NCBI GenBank assembly: GCA_900319635.1
Contig: ONPF01000011.1
Coordinates: forward strand, 1 to 55,769
Source of the DNA: an uncultured Eubacteriales bacterium
Lineage (GTDB): Bacteria > Bacillota > Clostridia > Oscillospirales > Oscillospiraceae
DNA: 55,769 nucleotides
Direction: 5' to 3'
Positions 12,138-50,604 of this stretch are shown here, piece after piece. The notes beneath the pieces are model-generated. The model did no database searches. It was not told the origin of the DNA and saw only the letters and a program-made list of their open reading frames with translations. Made by a program: the position numbers and the translations under genes. Within the stretch, counting starts at the first letter, position 1; every line of letters starts with the position of its first letter.

Positions 12138-13022
12138 TTATTGCTCCAGGAAGCACAGGACATCATGGAAGACCTGCTCCCTGTTGAGCTCGTTGAAGAC
12201 CTCATGTCTTGCGTCCTCATAGACGATCAGCGTGCTTTGAAGCCCGAGCTCCTCATACTTTTTCTGCAGTGCGTAGAGCCCCTCGCCCCAGTTGGAAACC
12301 GGGTCCATGGAGCCGCCGATGATAAGAATGGGCAGATCCTTGGGGATATTCTCCATCGCCTTTTCCTCGCCCATATCCGCCATGCCCTGGATCATATTCT
12401 GATAAAAGCCCAGCGTGCAGGTGCAGCCGCTGTAGGGGTCGGCAATATAGGCGTCAACGATGCTCTCATCTCTTGTCAGCCAGTCAAAGTCCGTCCTCGC
12501 CTTCTCATAGCGGGAGTTGTAAGCCCCGAACATGGAGGCAATGAGCTCAAAATTGGGCTGGTTCGGGTCGCCCGCCTCGGTCAGCGCCGTCACCATGGCC
12601 GCCGTCTCCCTGGCGTTCGGCGCGCTCATGGTGCTCCCGGAGAGGACGCAGCCGTCGATATGCTTTCCGTGGCGCTCGAGATAGAGCTGGCTGAGGAAGG
12701 AGCCCATGGAGTGCCCGATGAGGAAGACCTTGTCCGTCTTTTCCTTTGAGCGTTGGACGAGCTCATCCAGATTTTCCACGCAGCGGTCAAAATCTCCCTG
12801 ATCCATGTGCCCCAGATGCTCGGCCATGCGGTCGTGCCCGATGTGGACGATGGCGCGCACGGCGTAGCCCTGCCCGTTTAAAAATTCCGCCAGCGGCACA
12901 TAGCGTCCGGGATGCTCGGCCATGCCGTGGGAGAGGACGACCGTGGCCTTGGGCGCCTCAATCGGAAAGTCATAATACCAAACGGGCTTGCCCTCTTTGT
13001 TGATGAATTTTTCGATTGTCAT
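12138..13022 (-). CDS. alpha/beta hydrolase, monoacylglycerol lipase-like
   Basis: A 294-residue cytoplasmic serine hydrolase of the lysophospholipase/monoglyceride lipase type. VVLSHGMAEHPGRY (28-41) supplies the oxyanion region; the nucleophile is Ser105 in GHSMG; the acid is Asp240 in GGSMDPVS; the base is His273 in EDARHEVFNE. No signal peptide or membrane segment is visible. It lies just downstream of the membrane-fused hydrolase at 13099-15345 in the same direction; a weak GC-rich hairpin separates them, so a shared transcript is possible. Substrate is inferred as a small ester or acylglycerol. Confidence 0.9.
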   Translation of the reverse strand: MTIEKFINKEGKPVWYYDFPIEAPKATVVLSHGMAEHPGRYVPLAEFLNGQGYAVRAIVHIGHDRMAEHLGHMDQGDFDRCVENLDELVQRSKEKTDKVFLIGHSMGSFLSQLYLERHGKHIDGCVLSGSTMSAPNARETAAMVTALTEAGDPNQPNFELIASMFGAYNSRYEKARTDFDWLTRDESIVDAYIADPYSGCTCTLGFYQNMIQGMADMGEEKAMENIPKDLPILIIGGSMDPVSNWGEGLYALQKKYEELGLQSTLIVYEDARHEVFNELNREQVFHDVLCFLEQ

Positions 13023-13098: not shown

Positions 13099-15345
13099 TC
13101 AGAATCTGTAGCAGCAGGTGGAGGCCACGGCGACGATGCCGAAGAGGAAGGTGTTCACAAAGACGCCGGTCCAGATGTTGCCGGTCTTCGCGGTGATCCG
13201 ACGCTGGATGATCGCGAGCGCCACCAAGGTGCATTCAAAGGCTTCACAGACGATGCTGTAGAGGCCGAAGTGGGGGAAGGGCGCCACGCCGACGGTCTCA
13301 AGCGTGCCGAACTGGTAGATAAGGAAGAGCGTGTTGGGGATGGCGGCAATGGCGACCGCCATGAGATCCGCCTTCCAGCCGGTCATGCCATGGGTGCCGT
13401 TGGCGATGACGATGCCCATGCAGGCGTAGAAGATGAAGAAGAAGGGCATGTACCGCAGGGCCACCCGCAGCTGGAACCAGGTGGGCGTGTTGAAGTTGAA
13501 CATGAAAATTCTCAGATCGACCTTGAACACCCAGATGATGATCTGCAGGAAGAAGTAGATCGCCGCGACCGCGATCACGCCGATGAGGAAGGCAATGCCA
13601 AACTGCCCAAGCGTTGCCTTGAGGCCAAGCTCCTTTGCGCCGTGCTTCGTGTTGATGGCAAAGTGGGTGATGAGCGTGAACATGAGCGCGACCAGGCCGC
13701 AGTTCATGGCGTAGTAGGCGATATTGCCCTGGATGCCCGTGGCGTACCACTTGTTGGTGCCGTAGGCGATGGCGGTGACGCCGTTGCCGGTGGTGTAGCG
13801 GAGGACGATGGCGAGGGCGGCGATCAGCGCGATGCCCACAGCGGCCCGTCCGAAGACCTTCTTTTCACCGGGCTGAAGCTCGCCCTTCCCGGCCTTGACA
13901 AGCGCCACAACGCCCAGCGCCACCGAGAGGAGGATCAGGATCTGGAAAATCAGCGTAGTGAAGTCGGTGACTCTGGCCAGCCCCTCCGCGTCTCTGTCAA
14001 GCAGCGGAACGATGAGCGAGCAGATAAAGAGCATCGAAATGCCGGTGAGGAGCAGGGAGAGGAGCTTCTTCGTTCTGGAGGGTGTCTCCGCCTCCGCAGG
14101 CAGGGCGAGCGCCTCCTGCGTGACGACCTTCTTGAAGAAGGGCAGCTTGGAAAGCCAGATCGCCAGGCTGATGAGCGTGCCGATGAAGCACAGCATGGCA
14201 AGGCCCAGGAAGACCTCTCTCAGCCACCAGATCTGCCCGGACGTGTTCTTGATGCCGTGGTCAGCCGGCGTGCCGAGATCGTGGGAAGCAAGCTGATAGG
14301 TGAAGGCGTGGTCATAGAACTCGATCATGCGCTGGGTGCACTCGGGGCTCCAGGTGTTATAGGGGTGGTCGCCCTCCACCACATAGATCACGCGCTCGCC
14401 GTAGCCGGGGCTAGCGTTCTTGTAGCTCTCCGCGCCGGTAGCGCCGTAAGCCAGGTTGGTCACGGGATCGACCGCGTAGTATTCACCGGAGACGCCGGGG
14501 CCGGTCAGGCCCAGCATGCTGTAGCCGACGGCATCCTTTACGTAGTTCTTTTCGATGACCTCGCGCTCGTCCGCATTGTCAAAGAAGAACTCGTCATAGC
14601 GCGCGGCAATGGTGCCGGCGGTACGCGGGCCAAAGGTGTTGTACGTAGCGGGGTAGTAGCCGCCGGAATAGGCGGTGACATAGCCGTCGTCATAGCGGAA
14701 GTCCGCACCCACCGAAAGGACGGCGGCGATCATTCTGTAGTTCTGGCTGCGGCGAATGGTGAGGTTCATCTCGTCCCAGGCCGCAGCGATCTCGCTGGAG
14801 AAGCCGCCCATGGAGTGCCCGGAAACGCTGATCATACCGTTGCCGGCGGCATCCTTGAGCACATAGGGCTGGGAGTACATGTACTCCACCGCGTCATACA
14901 TGCTCCAAACATAGAAATAGAAGGCCTGGGGCGTATCCCAGGAGGAGTCGCCGTGGTCGTACTGGTCAAAGGCAAAGACCACATAGCCCCTGCGGGACAT
15001 TTCCACCGCAGGCGCCTTCTGCGTCTCCTTGCTGTCGTTGTAGCCGTTGGTGAGGATCACGCAGGGCGCGGGGTTCTCCGCCGAAACGCCCTTCGGCAGA
15101 TAGAGATAACCGGTGAGCTTTGCGTTCAGCATCCCGTCCTTGTTCTCCCCGATGGTCATACGGTAGGGAACAGCCTCCGCGTCGCCGTACTTTTCGGCGT
15201 AGAAGGCGTCCATGTCGACCGTGACCATCTGGACATCCACGCTGTTGCCGGACGAGTTCACCAACGCGCCGAAAAACGACAGCACGAGGCATAAACTCGC
15301 CAGACACGCAACGAGAGCATAGGGTTTCTTGAAGAATCTTTTCAT
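13099..15345 (-). CDS. alpha/beta hydrolase fused to a polytopic membrane domain
   Basis: A 748-residue protein. An N-terminal membrane segment (about 8-28) leads to an extracytoplasmic hydrolase domain: CVILTNGYNDS, FAFDQYDHGDSS (residues 126-135), the nucleophile Ser178 in SVSGHSMGGFSS, and a candidate His in VEGDHPYNTW. From about residue 385 there are roughly eight or more membrane helices with no known transporter motif, ending in KTGNIWTGVFVNTFLFG. GAGGAAG precedes the ATG. The gene at 35832-37784 encodes a clear paralogue with the same order of domains. The XRE regulator gene stands divergently upstream, making it a candidate target. I know of no assigned function for this fusion. Confidence 0.85.
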   Translation of the reverse strand: MKRFFKKPYALVACLASLCLVLSFFGALVNSSGNSVDVQMVTVDMDAFYAEKYGDAEAVPYRMTIGENKDGMLNAKLTGYLYLPKGVSAENPAPCVILTNGYNDSKETQKAPAVEMSRRGYVVFAFDQYDHGDSSWDTPQAFYFYVWSMYDAVEYMYSQPYVLKDAAGNGMISVSGHSMGGFSSEIAAAWDEMNLTIRRSQNYRMIAAVLSVGADFRYDDGYVTAYSGGYYPATYNTFGPRTAGTIAARYDEFFFDNADEREVIEKNYVKDAVGYSMLGLTGPGVSGEYYAVDPVTNLAYGATGAESYKNASPGYGERVIYVVEGDHPYNTWSPECTQRMIEFYDHAFTYQLASHDLGTPADHGIKNTSGQIWWLREVFLGLAMLCFIGTLISLAIWLSKLPFFKKVVTQEALALPAEAETPSRTKKLLSLLLTGISMLFICSLIVPLLDRDAEGLARVTDFTTLIFQILILLSVALGVVALVKAGKGELQPGEKKVFGRAAVGIALIAALAIVLRYTTGNGVTAIAYGTNKWYATGIQGNIAYYAMNCGLVALMFTLITHFAINTKHGAKELGLKATLGQFGIAFLIGVIAVAAIYFFLQIIIWVFKVDLRIFMFNFNTPTWFQLRVALRYMPFFFIFYACMGIVIANGTHGMTGWKADLMAVAIAAIPNTLFLIYQFGTLETVGVAPFPHFGLYSIVCEAFECTLVALAIIQRRITAKTGNIWTGVFVNTFLFGIVAVASTCCYRF

Positions 15346-33738: not shown

Positions 33739-34248
33739 TTATTCGATCTTCACCAGCGTGGGCTGCTTCTGGATCTCATCCTTCTGGGTGCCGGCGGAGA
33801 GCGTCTCCAGCGCGTGGGTGAAGCGCCGGATATCCTCGTCGCTGAAATCCTCCAGCTCGTCGAAGAAGGGCTTGAACAGCTTCCGGAACATCTCCTGGGT
33901 GTGGTACTCATAGGTGCGGATGGCCAGGGGCGTGGGCTTGAGGATGATGTTCTTCCGGTTGTCCGAGGTGCGGAAGCGCTCGATCAGGCCCATGCTGTTC
34001 AGCTTCTTCTGGATCCGGGAGAAGGAGCTCTGGGGGATGCCCAGGGCCTGGATCATGTTGTTCATGTATTCGTCGTCCTCCCGGTGCTCCACGATGTACT
34101 CCAGCACCTGCCACTCGTTGGGAAGAAGATAGATGTCCTCATATATATGCAGCGGAGGGGTTGCCCGGGAGACGGTGTTCACGTGCTGCACGATGGCGGC
34201 GACCAGCGGACGATAGCGCCCCATCCATTCCAGTTTTTTCTTATCCAT
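33739..34248 (-). CDS. MarR-family transcriptional regulator
   Basis: A 169-residue regulator; the start is the ATG at 34248 with GAGGATC upstream. The winged helix is visible: LPNEWQVLEYIVEH, MNNMIQALGIPQSSFSRIQKKLNSMGLIERFRTSDNRKNIIL. The C-terminal helix bundle provides the dimer arm. It has its own promoter directly behind the stop of the MFS gene, which probably is its target or at least partner; that is inferred from position. Confidence 0.88.
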   Translation of the reverse strand: MDKKKLEWMGRYRPLVAAIVQHVNTVSRATPPLHIYEDIYLLPNEWQVLEYIVEHREDDEYMNNMIQALGIPQSSFSRIQKKLNSMGLIERFRTSDNRKNIILKPTPLAIRTYEYHTQEMFRKLFKPFFDELEDFSDEDIRRFTHALETLSAGTQKDEIQKQPTLVKIE

Positions 34249-34296
34249 CGTTCGATCCTCGCCTGCCTTGAAAACGCACAAAGCTTACTTGCAAAT

Positions 34297-34328: not shown

Positions 34329-35543
34329 TCAGATTTCCGTCTGTCCTTCTGCGGGGCGGAGCCGCCGCACGCAGAAGAAGCAGAGGGCCGTGCCCAGGGC
34401 GGCCAGGGCCAGGAGCAGGCTCAGCGTCACGGAGACGCGGTAGCCGTCCAGGAGCCTGCCGAAGCTGATGGTGCTGACAAAGGAAAACAGCAGCGGGCCG
34501 CCCGTCATCATGGCCTGGGCCAGGCCCGTGTGCTCATGGGGGATGATCTGGCGCACATACTCCACGGAGGCCGGCTGGAAAATGCCGGTGGAGAAGGCGT
34601 GCAGGGAGGAGGCCAGAAGCAGCATGGTGACGCTGCCCGCAAAGGTGTAGCCCGCGATCTTCAGGGTGTAGAAGCACATGCTGGCCACCAGCAGCGCGGA
34701 CAGGCGCCAGCGCTTTTTCAGCCAGACGAAGAGGAAGGTGGCCGGCACCTCGATGAGCGCCAGATACCCGCTCACCGCGCCGAAGTCCTCCGTATTCCCG
34801 CCCACGCTCTGCACCACGTTCACCAGGAAGGTAGTCAGGGTCTTGTTGGCGGCGGAGACCAGGGAGATCCCCGCCACCAGCAGCAAAAACAGGCGGCTCT
34901 GCCGGAGAAAGGCCCCCAGCGGCGTGGCGGGCGCCGCCCCCGTCTCCTCCCGCGCCGCAGGCTCCTCCGCCGGCGCGCCGCGCCGCAGCGGCAGCAGGAG
35001 CAGGCCCATGAGCAGGAAGAGCCCCTGCCCGGCGGGCAGCAGGACGAAGGGGTGGAAGCGTGCCAGCAGAAAACCCGCCGAGAGCGAGGTGAGCGCATAG
35101 CCCAGAGAGCCGAAGCCCCGGGCGATGCCGAAGCGGATGGGGACGCCGCCCCGCTTCAGGTCGATGTAGAGCTTGGCCACGGTGCTGCTGAGCGTCAGGG
35201 TCAGGGCCAGGTACAGGGTATAAAACAGCGCCGCGGCGAAGGCCTGCTTTCGCAGCAGGAGGATGCCGCCCAGGGCCAGGGTCTGCCCCAGCACCAGAAG
35301 CCAGCTCCAGCGATACACCGCCCCGGCGCCGCCCCGGTCGATCCGCCGGGAGACGGCCAGCATCAGCAGGCAGCCAAGCAGGGAGGCAAAGGCGCTCACC
35401 GTGCCGGCCTGGGCGTTGCCGAAGCCCAGGGCCTGCAGGAAGGCCACCGCAAAGCCCAGGGCCACGCTGCCCCCCGCCCAGTAGAAAAACTGGATCGCCC
35501 CATAGAGCAGGCGCAGCGTTCCATATCGATCCTTTGTACCCAT
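34329..35543 (-). CDS. MFS transporter
   Basis: A 404-residue major facilitator with twelve predicted helices in two halves separated by a cytoplasmic loop near residues 195-220 (RRGAPAEEPAAREETGAAP). IDRGGAGAVYRW after helix 2 and the FGIARGFGSLGYA stretch are like the oligosaccharide/LacY-nucleoside type of MFS, but the substrate cannot be read. GGGGGAG precedes the ATG. A weak -10 (minus TACAAT, 35587-35582) lies upstream. It lies in front of a MarR-type gene, a common arrangement for drug or metabolite efflux. Confidence 0.88.
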   Translation of the reverse strand: MGTKDRYGTLRLLYGAIQFFYWAGGSVALGFAVAFLQALGFGNAQAGTVSAFASLLGCLLMLAVSRRIDRGGAGAVYRWSWLLVLGQTLALGGILLLRKQAFAAALFYTLYLALTLTLSSTVAKLYIDLKRGGVPIRFGIARGFGSLGYALTSLSAGFLLARFHPFVLLPAGQGLFLLMGLLLLPLRRGAPAEEPAAREETGAAPATPLGAFLRQSRLFLLLVAGISLVSAANKTLTTFLVNVVQSVGGNTEDFGAVSGYLALIEVPATFLFVWLKKRWRLSALLVASMCFYTLKIAGYTFAGSVTMLLLASSLHAFSTGIFQPASVEYVRQIIPHEHTGLAQAMMTGGPLLFSFVSTISFGRLLDGYRVSVTLSLLLALAALGTALCFFCVRRLRPAEGQTEI

Positions 35544-35687: not shown

Positions 35688-35716
35688 TTGACGAGCCGGC
35701 CGTGATTCAGTATGAT
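35688..35716 (+). promoter_or_regulatory. promoter of the second membrane hydrolase
   Basis: TTGACG (35688-35693), 17 bp, TATGAT (35711-35716). The -10 box is inside the left arm of the inverted repeat at 35710-35751. Confidence 0.8.
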
Positions 35717-35831: not shown

Positions 35832-37784
35832 ATGCGCAACAAAAAATACCGGCTGTTGATCCTCATCGCCTGTGCGATGCTTCTGGTCAGCATGGTCGGA
35901 ACCGCGCTGATGGAGTCGGCCTTCATCGGCGTGAAACGGACCGAGTACAACATCAATCTGACTGACCTGGCCGCTAAGATCGAGGAGAACAACGCGAAAA
36001 CCGGCAGAGACATCCAGATCCACTTCTCCCAGAACAAGATCAGCAACTTCCACTTCCGCCTCTTCGTCCCCACGAGCGCCACGGCGGAGAATCCCGCCCC
36101 CGCCATCGTGTGCTGCCACGGCGGCACCAACGTGCTGGAGCTGCAGATGCCCCTCTATGTGGAGCTGGCCCGCCGCGGCTACGTGGTCATTTCCATGGAC
36201 ATGGCCGGCCACGGCGAGAGCTCCAACGCCATCAACGGCATGACCAGCAACTCCAACGGCATGCTGGCCGCGGTGGAGTTCCTGATGAGCATGCCGGAGG
36301 TCGACCCGAACAACATCGGCGTCACCGGCCACAGCTTCGGCAACAGCTCCTGCGTGAACACCCTGGCCGTGCTGAACACGCCCGGCTCCACCCAGCGGGT
36401 AAAGGCCTGGGTCGACGGCGACGGCCTGCGCTATCTGGCCAGCGTCACGCCTGACATCGCCGAGGGCCTGTACCTGACCATCGGCGTGGCCAAGTACGGC
36501 GAGACCAACATGCCCAACGGCTATGCCTTCCTGAGCGGTCCCACCGCCCAGAACCTGCTGGGCATCTTCTCCCCCGGCTTCACCGGCAAAGAGGCGGTGA
36601 ACGGCCAGTGGTACGACGCTTCCGGCCCGGTGGACACCCCGCCCGCCGGCACCCCCCTGGACACCGACGGCGGCCTGAAGATCGTCCAGTACAAGGGCAC
36701 GCACCCCATGTGGCACTTCTCCCTGCCCACCACCGCCATCGCCATCAACGGCTTCTATGAGTCCCTGGGCGTGCCCGCCGGGCGCAGCCTCATCCCCGCC
36801 AACAAGCAGATCTGGCCCCTTGAGGTGTGCTTCGAGCTGCTGGGCCTGCTGGGCTTCTTCCTGCTGCTCTTCCCCGTGGTCGCCCTCCTGGCGGAGACCA
36901 AGCTCTTCTCCCGCATCAAGCGGAGCTACCCCGAGGACAAGGCCCTGCCCGCCTTCAAGAACGGCCGCAGCGCCCTCATCACGGTGCTGACCATCGCCGC
37001 CTGCATGCTGTTCTCCTACTTCAGCTACGCCTGGCTGGGTAAGTTCAACGACACCGGCCCGGACGGCCCCTCCCTCTTCAACGCCAACGCCTACCCGGCC
37101 GAGGGCATGGCCACCAACTTCGTGGCGCTCTGGACCCTGCTCTGCGGCGCCTTCACCCTGGTCACGATCCTGCTCAACTACGGCGCCCGGTGGCTCTTCG
37201 GCAAGAAGGACCGGGAAAAGCTGGGCAATCCCTTCGGCAGCCTGGCGGTGGACAGCGTGTCCCAGTTCCTGTACACGGTCCTCTTCGCCTTTGTCGTGGT
37301 GGGCATCCTGTACATCCCCGTGGCCATCGCCGGACTGGTGTTCAAGGCCGACTTCCGCATCTGCACCCTGGCCGTCCAGGTCGGCTCGCTGCGCTGGCTG
37401 CCCACGGTGCTGCTCCGCTACCTGCCCCTGTGGCTGATGTTCTATGTGCCCTACGCGGCGATGAACGCCAACACCCGCTTCAAGGACATGCCGGAATGGC
37501 TGAGCACGCTGATCTGCACCCTGGCCAACGGCCTGCCCCTGACCATCTTCCTCATCGTCCAGTACAGCAACATCTTCACCAAGGGAACTGTCATGCCCTA
37601 CAACAGCATGGCCGGCCTCATCGCCTTCACCCTGATCCCGGTCCTGGCCTTCGCCGCCGTCAGCTCCCGCTACATCTACAAGAAGACCGGCAGCGCCTGG
37701 GCCGCGGGCATGATCAACGGCCTGATCTTCTGCCTGATGATGGTCTACGGCAATGCCTGGCGGACCGACTTCTTCCTCATGTAA
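35832..37784 (+). CDS. alpha/beta hydrolase fused to a polytopic membrane domain (paralogue)
   Basis: A 650-residue protein; the start is the ATG at 35832 behind AAAGGAG, giving a clean N-terminal membrane segment (about 7-30). The extracytoplasmic hydrolase has AIVCCHGGTN (91-100), SMDMAGHGESS (about 121-131), nucleophile Ser168 in GVTGHSFGNSS, and a candidate His in YKGTHPMWHF. About nine membrane helices follow from residue 305 on. Shared marks with the 13099-15345 protein: FKADFRI versus FKVDLRI, a RYxPxxxxFY stretch, and KTGSAWAAGMINGLIF near the end. The promoter carries a palindrome over its -10. Confidence 0.85.
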   Translation: MRNKKYRLLILIACAMLLVSMVGTALMESAFIGVKRTEYNINLTDLAAKIEENNAKTGRDIQIHFSQNKISNFHFRLFVPTSATAENPAPAIVCCHGGTNVLELQMPLYVELARRGYVVISMDMAGHGESSNAINGMTSNSNGMLAAVEFLMSMPEVDPNNIGVTGHSFGNSSCVNTLAVLNTPGSTQRVKAWVDGDGLRYLASVTPDIAEGLYLTIGVAKYGETNMPNGYAFLSGPTAQNLLGIFSPGFTGKEAVNGQWYDASGPVDTPPAGTPLDTDGGLKIVQYKGTHPMWHFSLPTTAIAINGFYESLGVPAGRSLIPANKQIWPLEVCFELLGLLGFFLLLFPVVALLAETKLFSRIKRSYPEDKALPAFKNGRSALITVLTIAACMLFSYFSYAWLGKFNDTGPDGPSLFNANAYPAEGMATNFVALWTLLCGAFTLVTILLNYGARWLFGKKDREKLGNPFGSLAVDSVSQFLYTVLFAFVVVGILYIPVAIAGLVFKADFRICTLAVQVGSLRWLPTVLLRYLPLWLMFYVPYAAMNANTRFKDMPEWLSTLICTLANGLPLTIFLIVQYSNIFTKGTVMPYNSMAGLIAFTLIPVLAFAAVSSRYIYKKTGSAWAAGMINGLIFCLMMVYGNAWRTDFFLM

Positions 37785-48797: not shown

Positions 48798-49280
48798 TTA
48801 CAGCATAAAAATGCTGTCGTCGTTCTCCACCCAGTCGGAGACGGGGATGGTGCGGTACTCGGTGGGGCTCTGGCGGATCACCACCCGGTCGATGCCGGCG
48901 TTGATGATCTGCCGCTTGCACATGGAGCAGCTCATGGCGTCAGACAGCAGCTCGCCCGTCTTGGCGTCCCGCCCCACCAGATAGATGGTGGCGCCGATCA
49001 TGTCCCGCCGGGGGGCGGAGATGATGGCGTTGGCCTCGGCGTGGACGCTGCGGCAGAGCTCGTAGCGCTCGCCGGAGGGGATGTGCAGGCTCTCCCGCAT
49101 GCAGTAGCCCAGATCGGAGCAGTTGCGGCGGCCCCGGGGCGCGCCGTTATAGCCGGTGGAGATGATCTCGTCGTTGCGCACGATGATGGCGCCGTACTTC
49201 CTTCTCAGGCAGGTGGAGCGCTCCAGAACGGAGTCGGCAATATCCAGATAGTAGTTCTGCTTGCTGGTGCGGTTATCCAT
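48798..49280 (-). CDS. dCMP deaminase
   Basis: A 160-residue cytidine/deoxycytidylate deaminase: dCMP to dUMP. The start is the ATG at 49280 behind GGGGGGT. The zinc site is His80 and Glu82 in SVHAEANAI with Cys118 and Cys121 in SCSMCK. RRKYGAIIVRNDEIISTGYNGAPRG is typical of ComEB-type enzymes. It feeds thymidylate synthesis. Confidence 0.93.
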   Translation of the reverse strand: MDNRTSKQNYYLDIADSVLERSTCLRRKYGAIIVRNDEIISTGYNGAPRGRRNCSDLGYCMRESLHIPSGERYELCRSVHAEANAIISAPRRDMIGATIYLVGRDAKTGELLSDAMSCSMCKRQIINAGIDRVVIRQSPTEYRTIPVSDWVENDDSIFML

Positions 49281-49377
49281 AGCGGTACCCCCCGATATCG
49301 TTTTCGCCCCTATCATACCCCGGCGGCAGCGTTTCGTCAATCCTCTGGCGGTTTTTGTGGCCTTTCGGCGCGGGGCA

Positions 49378-49386
49378 TGGTATAAT
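49378..49386 (+). promoter_or_regulatory. extended -10 promoter of the CPBP protease gene
   Basis: TGGTATAAT: a perfect -10 (49381-49386) with the TGn extension and no clear -35. Confidence 0.55.
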
Positions 49387-49413
49387 ACAGAAAAACTCCT
49401 GCGGAGGTTGGTC

Positions 49414-50604
49414 ATGCATACAGAAAAACGCCCCATCTGGCTCCGCGCGCTGCTGACCGGGGGCTTTCTTGTTCTCTGCGCCGCCTGGCTGTTTATGGCC
49501 GTCGTCCTCTGGGACGGGGGCAGGCTCAGCTGGGGCTTCAAGCCGATCTGGCCGAAAACCGGAACCCTGCCCATCGTGCGGAATCTGCCCTCCGGTGCTT
49601 TCCTGGCGGATCTGCCCTCCCGCTTCCGGGACTGGGACGGGATGGCTGCCCTCCTCATCTATCTCTGCCTCTTCCCCCTGCCCTGCTGGGCCTTTGCGCT
49701 GACCGCCCTGCTGCCGGACACCCTGCGCCGCTTCTTTCCCGGAAACAGGAGGCTGCTGCTCGGCTATGGGATCGTCGCCGCTCTGGGCGTCGTCTTCGGC
49801 CTTCTCTGCACGCTGGCCGGCTGCACCACGCTGCTGCGGGGGCTCCTCTCCTTCTCCGCGGAGCAGCGCCTTGCCCGCATTCACATGCTGCTGATCCCCA
49901 TCAGCGGCGCTCTCGCGGTGCTGGGCTGGCTGCTGCCCTGCGCCATTCACCGGCTGCTGAAGCTGCGCGGAGGACGGGCCCTGCTGCGGGAGGCGGGCGG
50001 CGGAGCGCGCCGGGCCGGACTGTGCTTCGCCTGCGCCTTCGCGGTCACGGCGGCCTCCTGCCTGCTGCTGGCCGCCATCAAGCCCCTGGCGCCTCAGGCG
50101 GTGCGCTTTGTGGATGGCTTTTGCGCAAATAACGCCGTCTATGACACAGAGGCTTTCGTCTCCGTCTGCATGGCGCCGCTGATGGAGGAGCTGGCCTTCC
50201 GGGGTCTCATCCAGCGGGGGCTGCGGAAGAATCTGTCCGCCTGGGCGGCCGTCGTGCTCACGTCGGTGTTCTTCGGTCTCTGGCACCGGAACACCGGGCA
50301 GTTTGTCTACGCCTTCCTCTTTGCGCTGATGGTGGGCGCGATCTATGAGGCCACAGGGAAGCTGCGCTACACCTGGCTGTGCCACATGCTGATGAACCTC
50401 TTCGCCATCATGGGCTACTCGGATTCCGCCCGGGCGCTGCTGGGGAAGCTGCACTTCTTCCCCTGGCTGCGCAAGCTCCTGCTGGGTCTGCCCGCCTGGG
50501 CGGCGGCGCCGCTGCTGCTGCTGGTTGTGGCGGGGATCGCGCTGCTGGTGCGGCTGATGCGGGCAAAAAGTGCGCCGAAAGAAAGCTTTTCCCAAGAACA
50601 GTAG
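49414..50604 (+). CDS. CPBP-family (CAAX-like) membrane protease
   Basis: A 396-residue membrane protein. GCGGAGG precedes the ATG at 49414. About nine helices. The ABI/CPBP motifs are EELAFRG (Glu258, Glu259, Arg263), FFGLWHRNTGQ and a final LCHMLMNLF. This intramembrane glutamic protease family is tied to bacteriocin immunity, CAAX processing and other functions. The substrate is unknown. The queH gene follows 32 bp later. Confidence 0.88.
   Translation: MHTEKRPIWLRALLTGGFLVLCAAWLFMAVVLWDGGRLSWGFKPIWPKTGTLPIVRNLPSGAFLADLPSRFRDWDGMAALLIYLCLFPLPCWAFALTALLPDTLRRFFPGNRRLLLGYGIVAALGVVFGLLCTLAGCTTLLRGLLSFSAEQRLARIHMLLIPISGALAVLGWLLPCAIHRLLKLRGGRALLREAGGGARRAGLCFACAFAVTAASCLLLAAIKPLAPQAVRFVDGFCANNAVYDTEAFVSVCMAPLMEELAFRGLIQRGLRKNLSAWAAVVLTSVFFGLWHRNTGQFVYAFLFALMVGAIYEATGKLRYTWLCHMLMNLFAIMGYSDSARALLGKLHFFPWLRKLLLGLPAWAAAPLLLLVVAGIALLVRLMRAKSAPKESFSQEQ

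Follow-up and report, generated by a model that had tools for sequence, protein, structure and literature searches.

An apparently unnamed family of membrane-fused serine hydrolases recurrently encoded in glycerol-catabolism loci

A serine hydrolase that is fused to a multi-helix membrane domain raises the question of what the two parts do for one another. Two genes of this kind are found in a stretch of 55,769 nucleotides from an uncultured Eubacteriales bacterium (contig ONPF01000011.1), referred to below as the window. A sequence-only reading had described them as paralogues of the same architecture, situated 20 kb apart, and had proposed an enzyme that passes its product to its own membrane channel or uses its membrane part to acquire lipid substrates. 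Is this fusion peculiar to the window, which compounds are likely to be its substrates, and how may the helices contribute? The two genes and their parts are as follows.

13099..15345, minus strand: P0002, 748 aa, anchor plus alpha/beta hydrolase plus membrane domain
15259..15315, minus strand: P0002 N-terminal membrane anchor, residues 11-29, after a positive stretch (hydropathy, charge)
14266..15129, minus strand: P0002 hydrolase domain, about residues 73-360, limits approximate (Pfam Hydrolase_4 and PDB esterase profile matches)
14812..14814, minus strand: P0002 candidate nucleophile Ser178 in GHSMG (Ser in 34/34 aligned members)
14365..14367, minus strand: P0002 candidate catalytic His327 (His in 34/34 aligned members)
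13102..14235, minus strand: P0002 membrane domain, residues 371-748, about 10 helices
13507..13527, minus strand: FKVDLRI, a conserved loop of P0002, predicted extracytoplasmic (Arg 33/34, Asp 29/34)
13153..13188, minus strand: KTGNIWTGVFVN, start of the last helix of P0002, predicted cytoplasmic side (Thr 34/34, Asn 28/34)
35832..37784, plus strand: P0001, 650 aa, anchor plus alpha/beta hydrolase plus about 8 helices
36333..36335, plus strand: P0001 candidate nucleophile Ser168 in GHSFG (family alignment)
36702..36704, plus strand: P0001 candidate catalytic His291 (family alignment)
36807..37781, plus strand: P0001 membrane domain

The distance between the two genes is 20.5 kb, and both products display the succession of N-terminal anchor, hydrolase and helices that had been read from the letters. 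The serine motifs claimed for the pair, GHSMG and GHSFG, are present in the translated ORFs, as are the three marks of the C-terminal part, which read FKVDLRI, RYMPFFFIFY and KTGNIWTGVFVN in P0002 and FKADFRI, RYLPLWLMFY and KTGSAWAAGMIN in P0001. The open frame of P0001 has a possible earlier start at 35712. BLASTP aligns the two proteins over two collinear stretches, of 419 columns with 25% identity (E 1e-18) and of 225 columns with 26% identity (E 9e-14). Compared by themselves, the membrane parts reach 68.6 bits, where the highest of 100 shuffled scores is 26.9 bits and the reversed sequence gives 19.2 bits; hence the paralogy spans the membrane part and is not due to chance. P0001 and P0002 are true paralogues across both hydrolase and membrane parts, and the kinship that had been proposed for them holds. 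The source genome (G000) encodes a third family copy on another contig (C34, locus L008), which is nearer to P0002 than to P0001.

Pfam and NCBIfam recognise the hydrolase part alone in the two window proteins, and they do so weakly. P0001 scores over the cut-off of Abhydrolase_1 (PF00561; 34.6 bits, cut-off 25.8, E 2e-8); P0002 is under it with 21.1 bits and just under the cut-off of Hydrolase_4 (PF12146; 26.5 bits, cut-off 27, E 4.8e-6). When a family profile of 26 full-length members was run against the PDB, the matched stretch was the hydrolase part in the best 60 of 387 matches, and the matches include entries for EST1E and MHETase. The Gly-x-Ser-x-Gly elbow and the histidine are invariant in all 34 aligned family members. 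The acid column of the triad is occupied by Asp in 27 of the 34, by Glu in four, by Gly in two, P0001 being one of them, and by Leu in one; another acid residue may serve. Judging from the charges of the loops, the hydrolase domain is predicted to reside outside the cytoplasm, and as a prediction of this kind the extracytoplasmic location suggested earlier is supported.

Hydropathy assigns 1+10 helices to P0002, 1+7 to P0001 and a mean of 1+8 to the 34 members, and an earlier count of 'eight or so' membrane helices compares with about 8 in P0001 and about 10 in P0002 beyond the anchor. Three residues of the membrane domain are near-invariant: Arg612 (33/34), Thr721 (34/34) and Tyr632 (33/34). 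The loop charges of the 34 members predict the conserved FKxDFR and QYxTLFxTG loops to be outside, on the same side of the membrane as the hydrolase, and RxxYKKTGN to be inside. The membrane part had been called unlike known transporters, and the searches of Pfam, NCBIfam and the PDB indeed gave no strong match to a characterised family. With the membrane part of 26 members as queries, any Pfam family that turned up was matched by a single member and any NCBIfam family by at most two (best E 0.004), and the PDB sequences returned a single chance-level match (E 1.3). AlphaFold2 models from shallow alignments were of low confidence, with a pLDDT of 44 for P0002 (4 rows) and of 42 for the Ornithinibacillus membrane domain (5 rows).

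Far from being peculiar to the window, the fused architecture is widespread: P0001 and P0002 belong to a large family of membrane-bound serine hydrolases that apparently has no name and is found in many lineages. Full-length relatives occur across the Bacillota and also in Deinococcus, Maritalea and Haloarcula; named relatives come from Erysipelotrichaceae, Ornithinibacillus and Paenisporosarcina, and plasmid-borne ones, annotated merely as alpha/beta (fold) hydrolases, from Jeotgalibaca, Deinococcus ficus, Haloarcula litorea and Maritalea. A profile of the membrane domain matches 12 of 398 Bacillota genomes (one, G365, with a fragment containing stops), 13 of 299 genomes in the class of G079 and 9 of 70 genomes in the class of G341 (one, G756, being short with stops). 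Five of the matches in the class of G079 are full members, six are confined to the KTGN block, and those in G566 and G732 are broken or short. Taken together, with repeats counted once, the three samples yield 23 full matches, all of them in open frames of at least 579 aa; in these samples the membrane domain was found only as part of a long fused frame, never alone. Two scans of viral contigs yielded no family relatives. The Paenisporosarcina gene (L007:5977-7494) is open only as two separate pieces, and in G732 a short fragment of the family gene alone was found (L118:7413-7565). A 1176-aa frame at L094 was rejected as a full gene, the gene start lying most likely inside the frame. Family genes are placed side by side at L101:6957-10731 and L136:7324-11393, both inside glycerol loci, and at L106:7779-12539, where a MarR gene lies between them. 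A literature search, whose coverage is thin for subscription journals, returned no paper on a family protein; the hydrolase fold is known, and in the literature searched neither the membrane domain nor its association with glycerol operons appears to have been described.

What the enzyme may act on is indicated by its neighbours. Glycerol-catabolism genes (glpK, glpD/A, glpP, gldA, dhaK) were found in 22 of 54 family loci and in none of 12 control stretches, each 19 kb long and placed at round-number coordinates within four of the genomes that hold the loci (Fisher p 0.006). The arrangements include the following, where HYD denotes the family gene.

L006, Ornithinibacillus: glpP-HYD-glpK-glpD
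L090, Deinococcus: HYD-glpK-glpD
L088, Jeotgalibaca: gldA-dhaKLM-HYD..glpK
L093, L114-L117: PocR alongside gldA-dhaK-dhaL-HYD
L095: glpD-glpP-HYD-glpK
L100, L101: HYD-glpP-glpA-glpB-glpK
L102: HYD-glpK-glpA
L104, L107-L109, L136, L138, L141, L143, all in the window's genus: PocR with HYD and glpK

The family genes of Jeotgalibaca and Deinococcus have glpK, glpD, gldA and dhaKLM as annotated neighbours, and Pfam confirms PocR (PF10114 plus an AraC-type HTH) in L107 and L093 and GlpP antiterminators (PF04309) in L006 and L100. PocR and MarR were not counted as glycerol genes, nor were weak glpB-like matches (L094, L120) or partial PocR matches (L106, L124, L149). A locus with a fragment only (L118) and three with CPBP proteins (L112, L113, L119) were left out of the 54, several of which share one genome or end at contig ends. 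The glycerol queries were proteins from the first loci, which were then scanned over all family loci. Since the queries were drawn from some of the 54 loci, the fairer figure is that for loci fetched after the glpK, glpD, gldA and dhaK queries had been fixed, and 10 of these 24 carry glycerol genes. They comprise 4 of 4 loci from a single family, f52, and 6 of 20 from a second set (6/16 in the window's genus, 0/4 in f154, the four f154 loci all being new), which includes L034, an already known locus whose neighbours had not been looked at before. In 32 of the 54 loci, both window genes included, glycerol genes are absent from the stretch read.

The glycerol link is scattered over the family tree and involves two different glycerol pathways, rather than being inherited in one clade. 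In a tree of 34 members, 16 of the 33 labelled rows are glycerol-linked; this distribution needs 10 changes, at least 9 of them forced by starred branches, and the link therefore recurs across the family. Glycerol-linked rows do not cluster on the tree beyond what shuffling the labels gives (136 of 500 shuffles were as low). The family gene of Maritalea follows directly after a TRAP transporter operon (L091:2950-7683); its product may there be an organic acid, which points to esters of another kind in this organism. At a distance of 0.5 kb from the Haloarcula litorea family gene lies a divergent gene whose annotation is MEDS-domain protein (L089:3931-7599), a sensor type commonly mentioned alongside PocR.

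From the computed family, its fusion, the conserved Ser and His and the glycerol context we infer a substrate, a direction of the reaction and a function of the membrane domain. The hydrolase domain would be held outside the cell by one N-terminal helix and by the C-terminal multi-helix domain, and would most likely act at the outer membrane surface on glycerol esters, cleaving acylglycerols or lipids like them. The freed glycerol would enter the cell and there be taken over by GlpK or by GldA and DhaK. The membrane domain most likely helps at the membrane step, be it by glycerol entry in place of GlpF or by the extraction and presentation of lipid. We estimate the odds as about even (a probability of roughly 0.5) that in much of the family the enzyme cleaves extracellular glycerol esters and that its membrane domain aids product entry or substrate capture.

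How far this reading extends to the window copies depends on their own surroundings, which are listed here.

12138..13022, minus strand: P0003, Hydrolase_4 protein (E 6e-44), 76 nt downstream of P0002
15522..16010, plus strand: HTH_3 regulator, divergent, upstream of P0002 (Pfam HTH_3 1e-15)
33739..34281, minus strand: MarR-like HTH regulator near P0001 (Pfam, locus comparison)
34329..35543, minus strand: MFS transporter, divergent from P0001 (Pfam MFS_1_like 3e-14)

The third hydrolase that had been noticed beside P0002 is P0003, which is on the same strand and possibly co-transcribed with it. With P0002 predicted outside and P0003 devoid of an obvious anchor, the two form a hydrolase pair on one strand. 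As a fixed partner of the family P0003 was rejected, because at none of the other loci among the 54 did tblastn detect a relative of P0003 next to the family gene. No glycerol gene lies beside either window copy in the stretch read. The source genome, in an assembly that is about 92% complete, contains no glpK match and no Dak1 (dhaK) match, and none of the glycerol queries match around its one MIP gene. A glycerol role of the window copies is thus transferred by homology only, and their substrates may be different esters. It is possible, though less likely than not, that the window copies cleave esters other than those of glycerol, such as short-chain acyl or plant phenolic ones, which the MarR-like regulator would sense, while the MFS transporter would move the product. 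In keeping with it, the order of MarR, MFS and family gene at P0001 is repeated in a sister-species contig (L105), the genome has neither glpK nor Dak1 match, and the family profile matches EST1E and MHETase. On the other hand, relatives of the same MarR regulator adjoin family genes in other genomes, and in five sister-species loci they do so together with glpK; L104, L108 and L141 match the window MarR best, L137 and L140 its L110 relative.

For the family at large, three readings of the helices are considered. In the first, the membrane domain would itself conduct the released glycerol and replace GlpF in the operons of several lineages, which would amount to a new type of glycerol entry; we consider this possible, if on the doubtful side. 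The usual operon order is glpP-glpF-glpK, and in Ornithinibacillus (L006) the family gene is situated between glpP and glpK, the place expected for glpF; a separate, ordinary MIP-glpK-dhaK-dhaL-dhaM locus is encoded on another contig of this organism. Of the 19 genomes whose glycerol loci include a family gene, 16 gave no MIP match, and the remaining three (G455, G036, G635) carry MIP on another contig. No MIP/GlpF gene was found on the contigs of the glycerol-linked loci in these 19 genomes, some of whose assemblies are incomplete, and together with the presence of relatives in glycerol loci this supports a hydrolase that feeds its own membrane domain. The fusion to long frames in all 23 full matches speaks for the same arrangement. 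Within the phylum sample, MIP is present in 0 of 9 glpK-bearing genomes with the family and in 71 of 189 without it (p 0.03), which is to say that an aquaglyceroporin is missing in 9/9 and 118/189, respectively. The absence of MIP is suggestive in favour of replacement, but as proof it was rejected as too weak, given that the 19-genome set compares 3/19 with the same 71/189 (p 0.08). Against conduction stand the sequences of the 26 members, whose matched families do not include MIP (PF00230) and which lack the NPA pair, an NP[AVSL] triplet occurring once each in two of them, and also the halves of the membrane domain, between which hhalign detected no internal repeat (probability 1.4%). Passive diffusion is a sufficient alternative: glycerol can pass through membranes by simple diffusion, and other transporters are also known (PMC11962113), so that no channel would be required.

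In the second reading, which we consider about equally doubtful, the membrane domain would be related to the CPBP fold but devoid of catalytic activity, and would lift lipid from the bilayer and present it to the hydrolase. In hhalign the KTGN..N block of the membrane profile aligns with CPBP motif 3 at E 0.0019, compared to 0.04 and 0.1 for reversed controls, but the probability is just 14.5% over 24 columns. The membrane profile also weakly matches proteins in six genomes of the genus g220 (E 7e-5 to 4e-4), and the three that were examined are CPBP proteins (L112:7679-8431, L113:7340-8092, L119:7807-8559). A precedent is offered by LnsB of Staphylococcus aureus, a CPBP-like protein whose signature motifs have diverged and which acts together with an acyltransferase (PMC7387801). 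The family speaks against such descent in that the EExx(x)R/W motif is found in 0 of 26 members, that FxxxH or HxxxN strings are scattered in some of them with none conserved, and that PF02517 is not among the families matched; the CPBP kinship is only a hint from profile comparison. In the g220 genomes G324, G583 and G663, glpK is preceded on its own strand, at a distance of about 1.8 kb, by the gene of the CPBP protein (EEIGWR, WSSWH, THACIN), and the window carries an ordinary CPBP (Rce1-like) gene at 49261-50604 on the plus strand, with EELAFRG and His motifs and a PF02517 match.

As for the third reading, single-anchor lipases exist, but it is rather unlikely that the helices only hold or dimerise a secreted esterase and that the glycerol link concerns the enzyme alone, considering that 8-10 helices bear the near-invariant Arg, Thr and Tyr residues and that no copy separate from a long frame turned up in the genome samples searched.

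In glpK-bearing bacteria without an aquaglyceroporin, both the entry route and the source of glycerol often remain unexplained. If the glycerol-ester reading is true, the fusion of a hydrolase with a membrane domain in such operons would account for both in the organisms that carry it. The glycerol context is, moreover, a first functional lead for an uncatalogued membrane domain.

Several known systems invite comparison. GlpF has six helices, and the likeness of the family to the MIP aquaglyceroporins (PF00230) is one of position, the family gene taking a place beside glpK; it differs in having 8-10 helices, no MIP match and no NPA pair. The likeness to CPBP or Rce1-like proteins (PF02517) consists of a short YxKTGNxW..(N) block before the last helix that resembles CPBP motif 3, whereas the EExx(x)R/W motif is missing (0/26) and the profile comparison is weak (24 columns). 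The LnsA-LnsB pair for lipoprotein N-acylation in S. aureus likewise joins an acyl-handling enzyme with a polytopic CPBP-like partner whose catalytic motifs have diverged (PMC7387801); it consists of two separate proteins, with an NlpC/P60 enzyme and a different chemistry, and the CPBP kinship of the family's domain is unproven. A further comparison is with Abhydrolase_1 and Hydrolase_4, the esterases and monoacylglycerol lipases, with which the family shares the G-x-S-x-G motif, an invariant His and a match spanning the domain's first half, and from which it is set apart by its predicted location outside the cell and its fusion to 8-10 helices that belong to no family.
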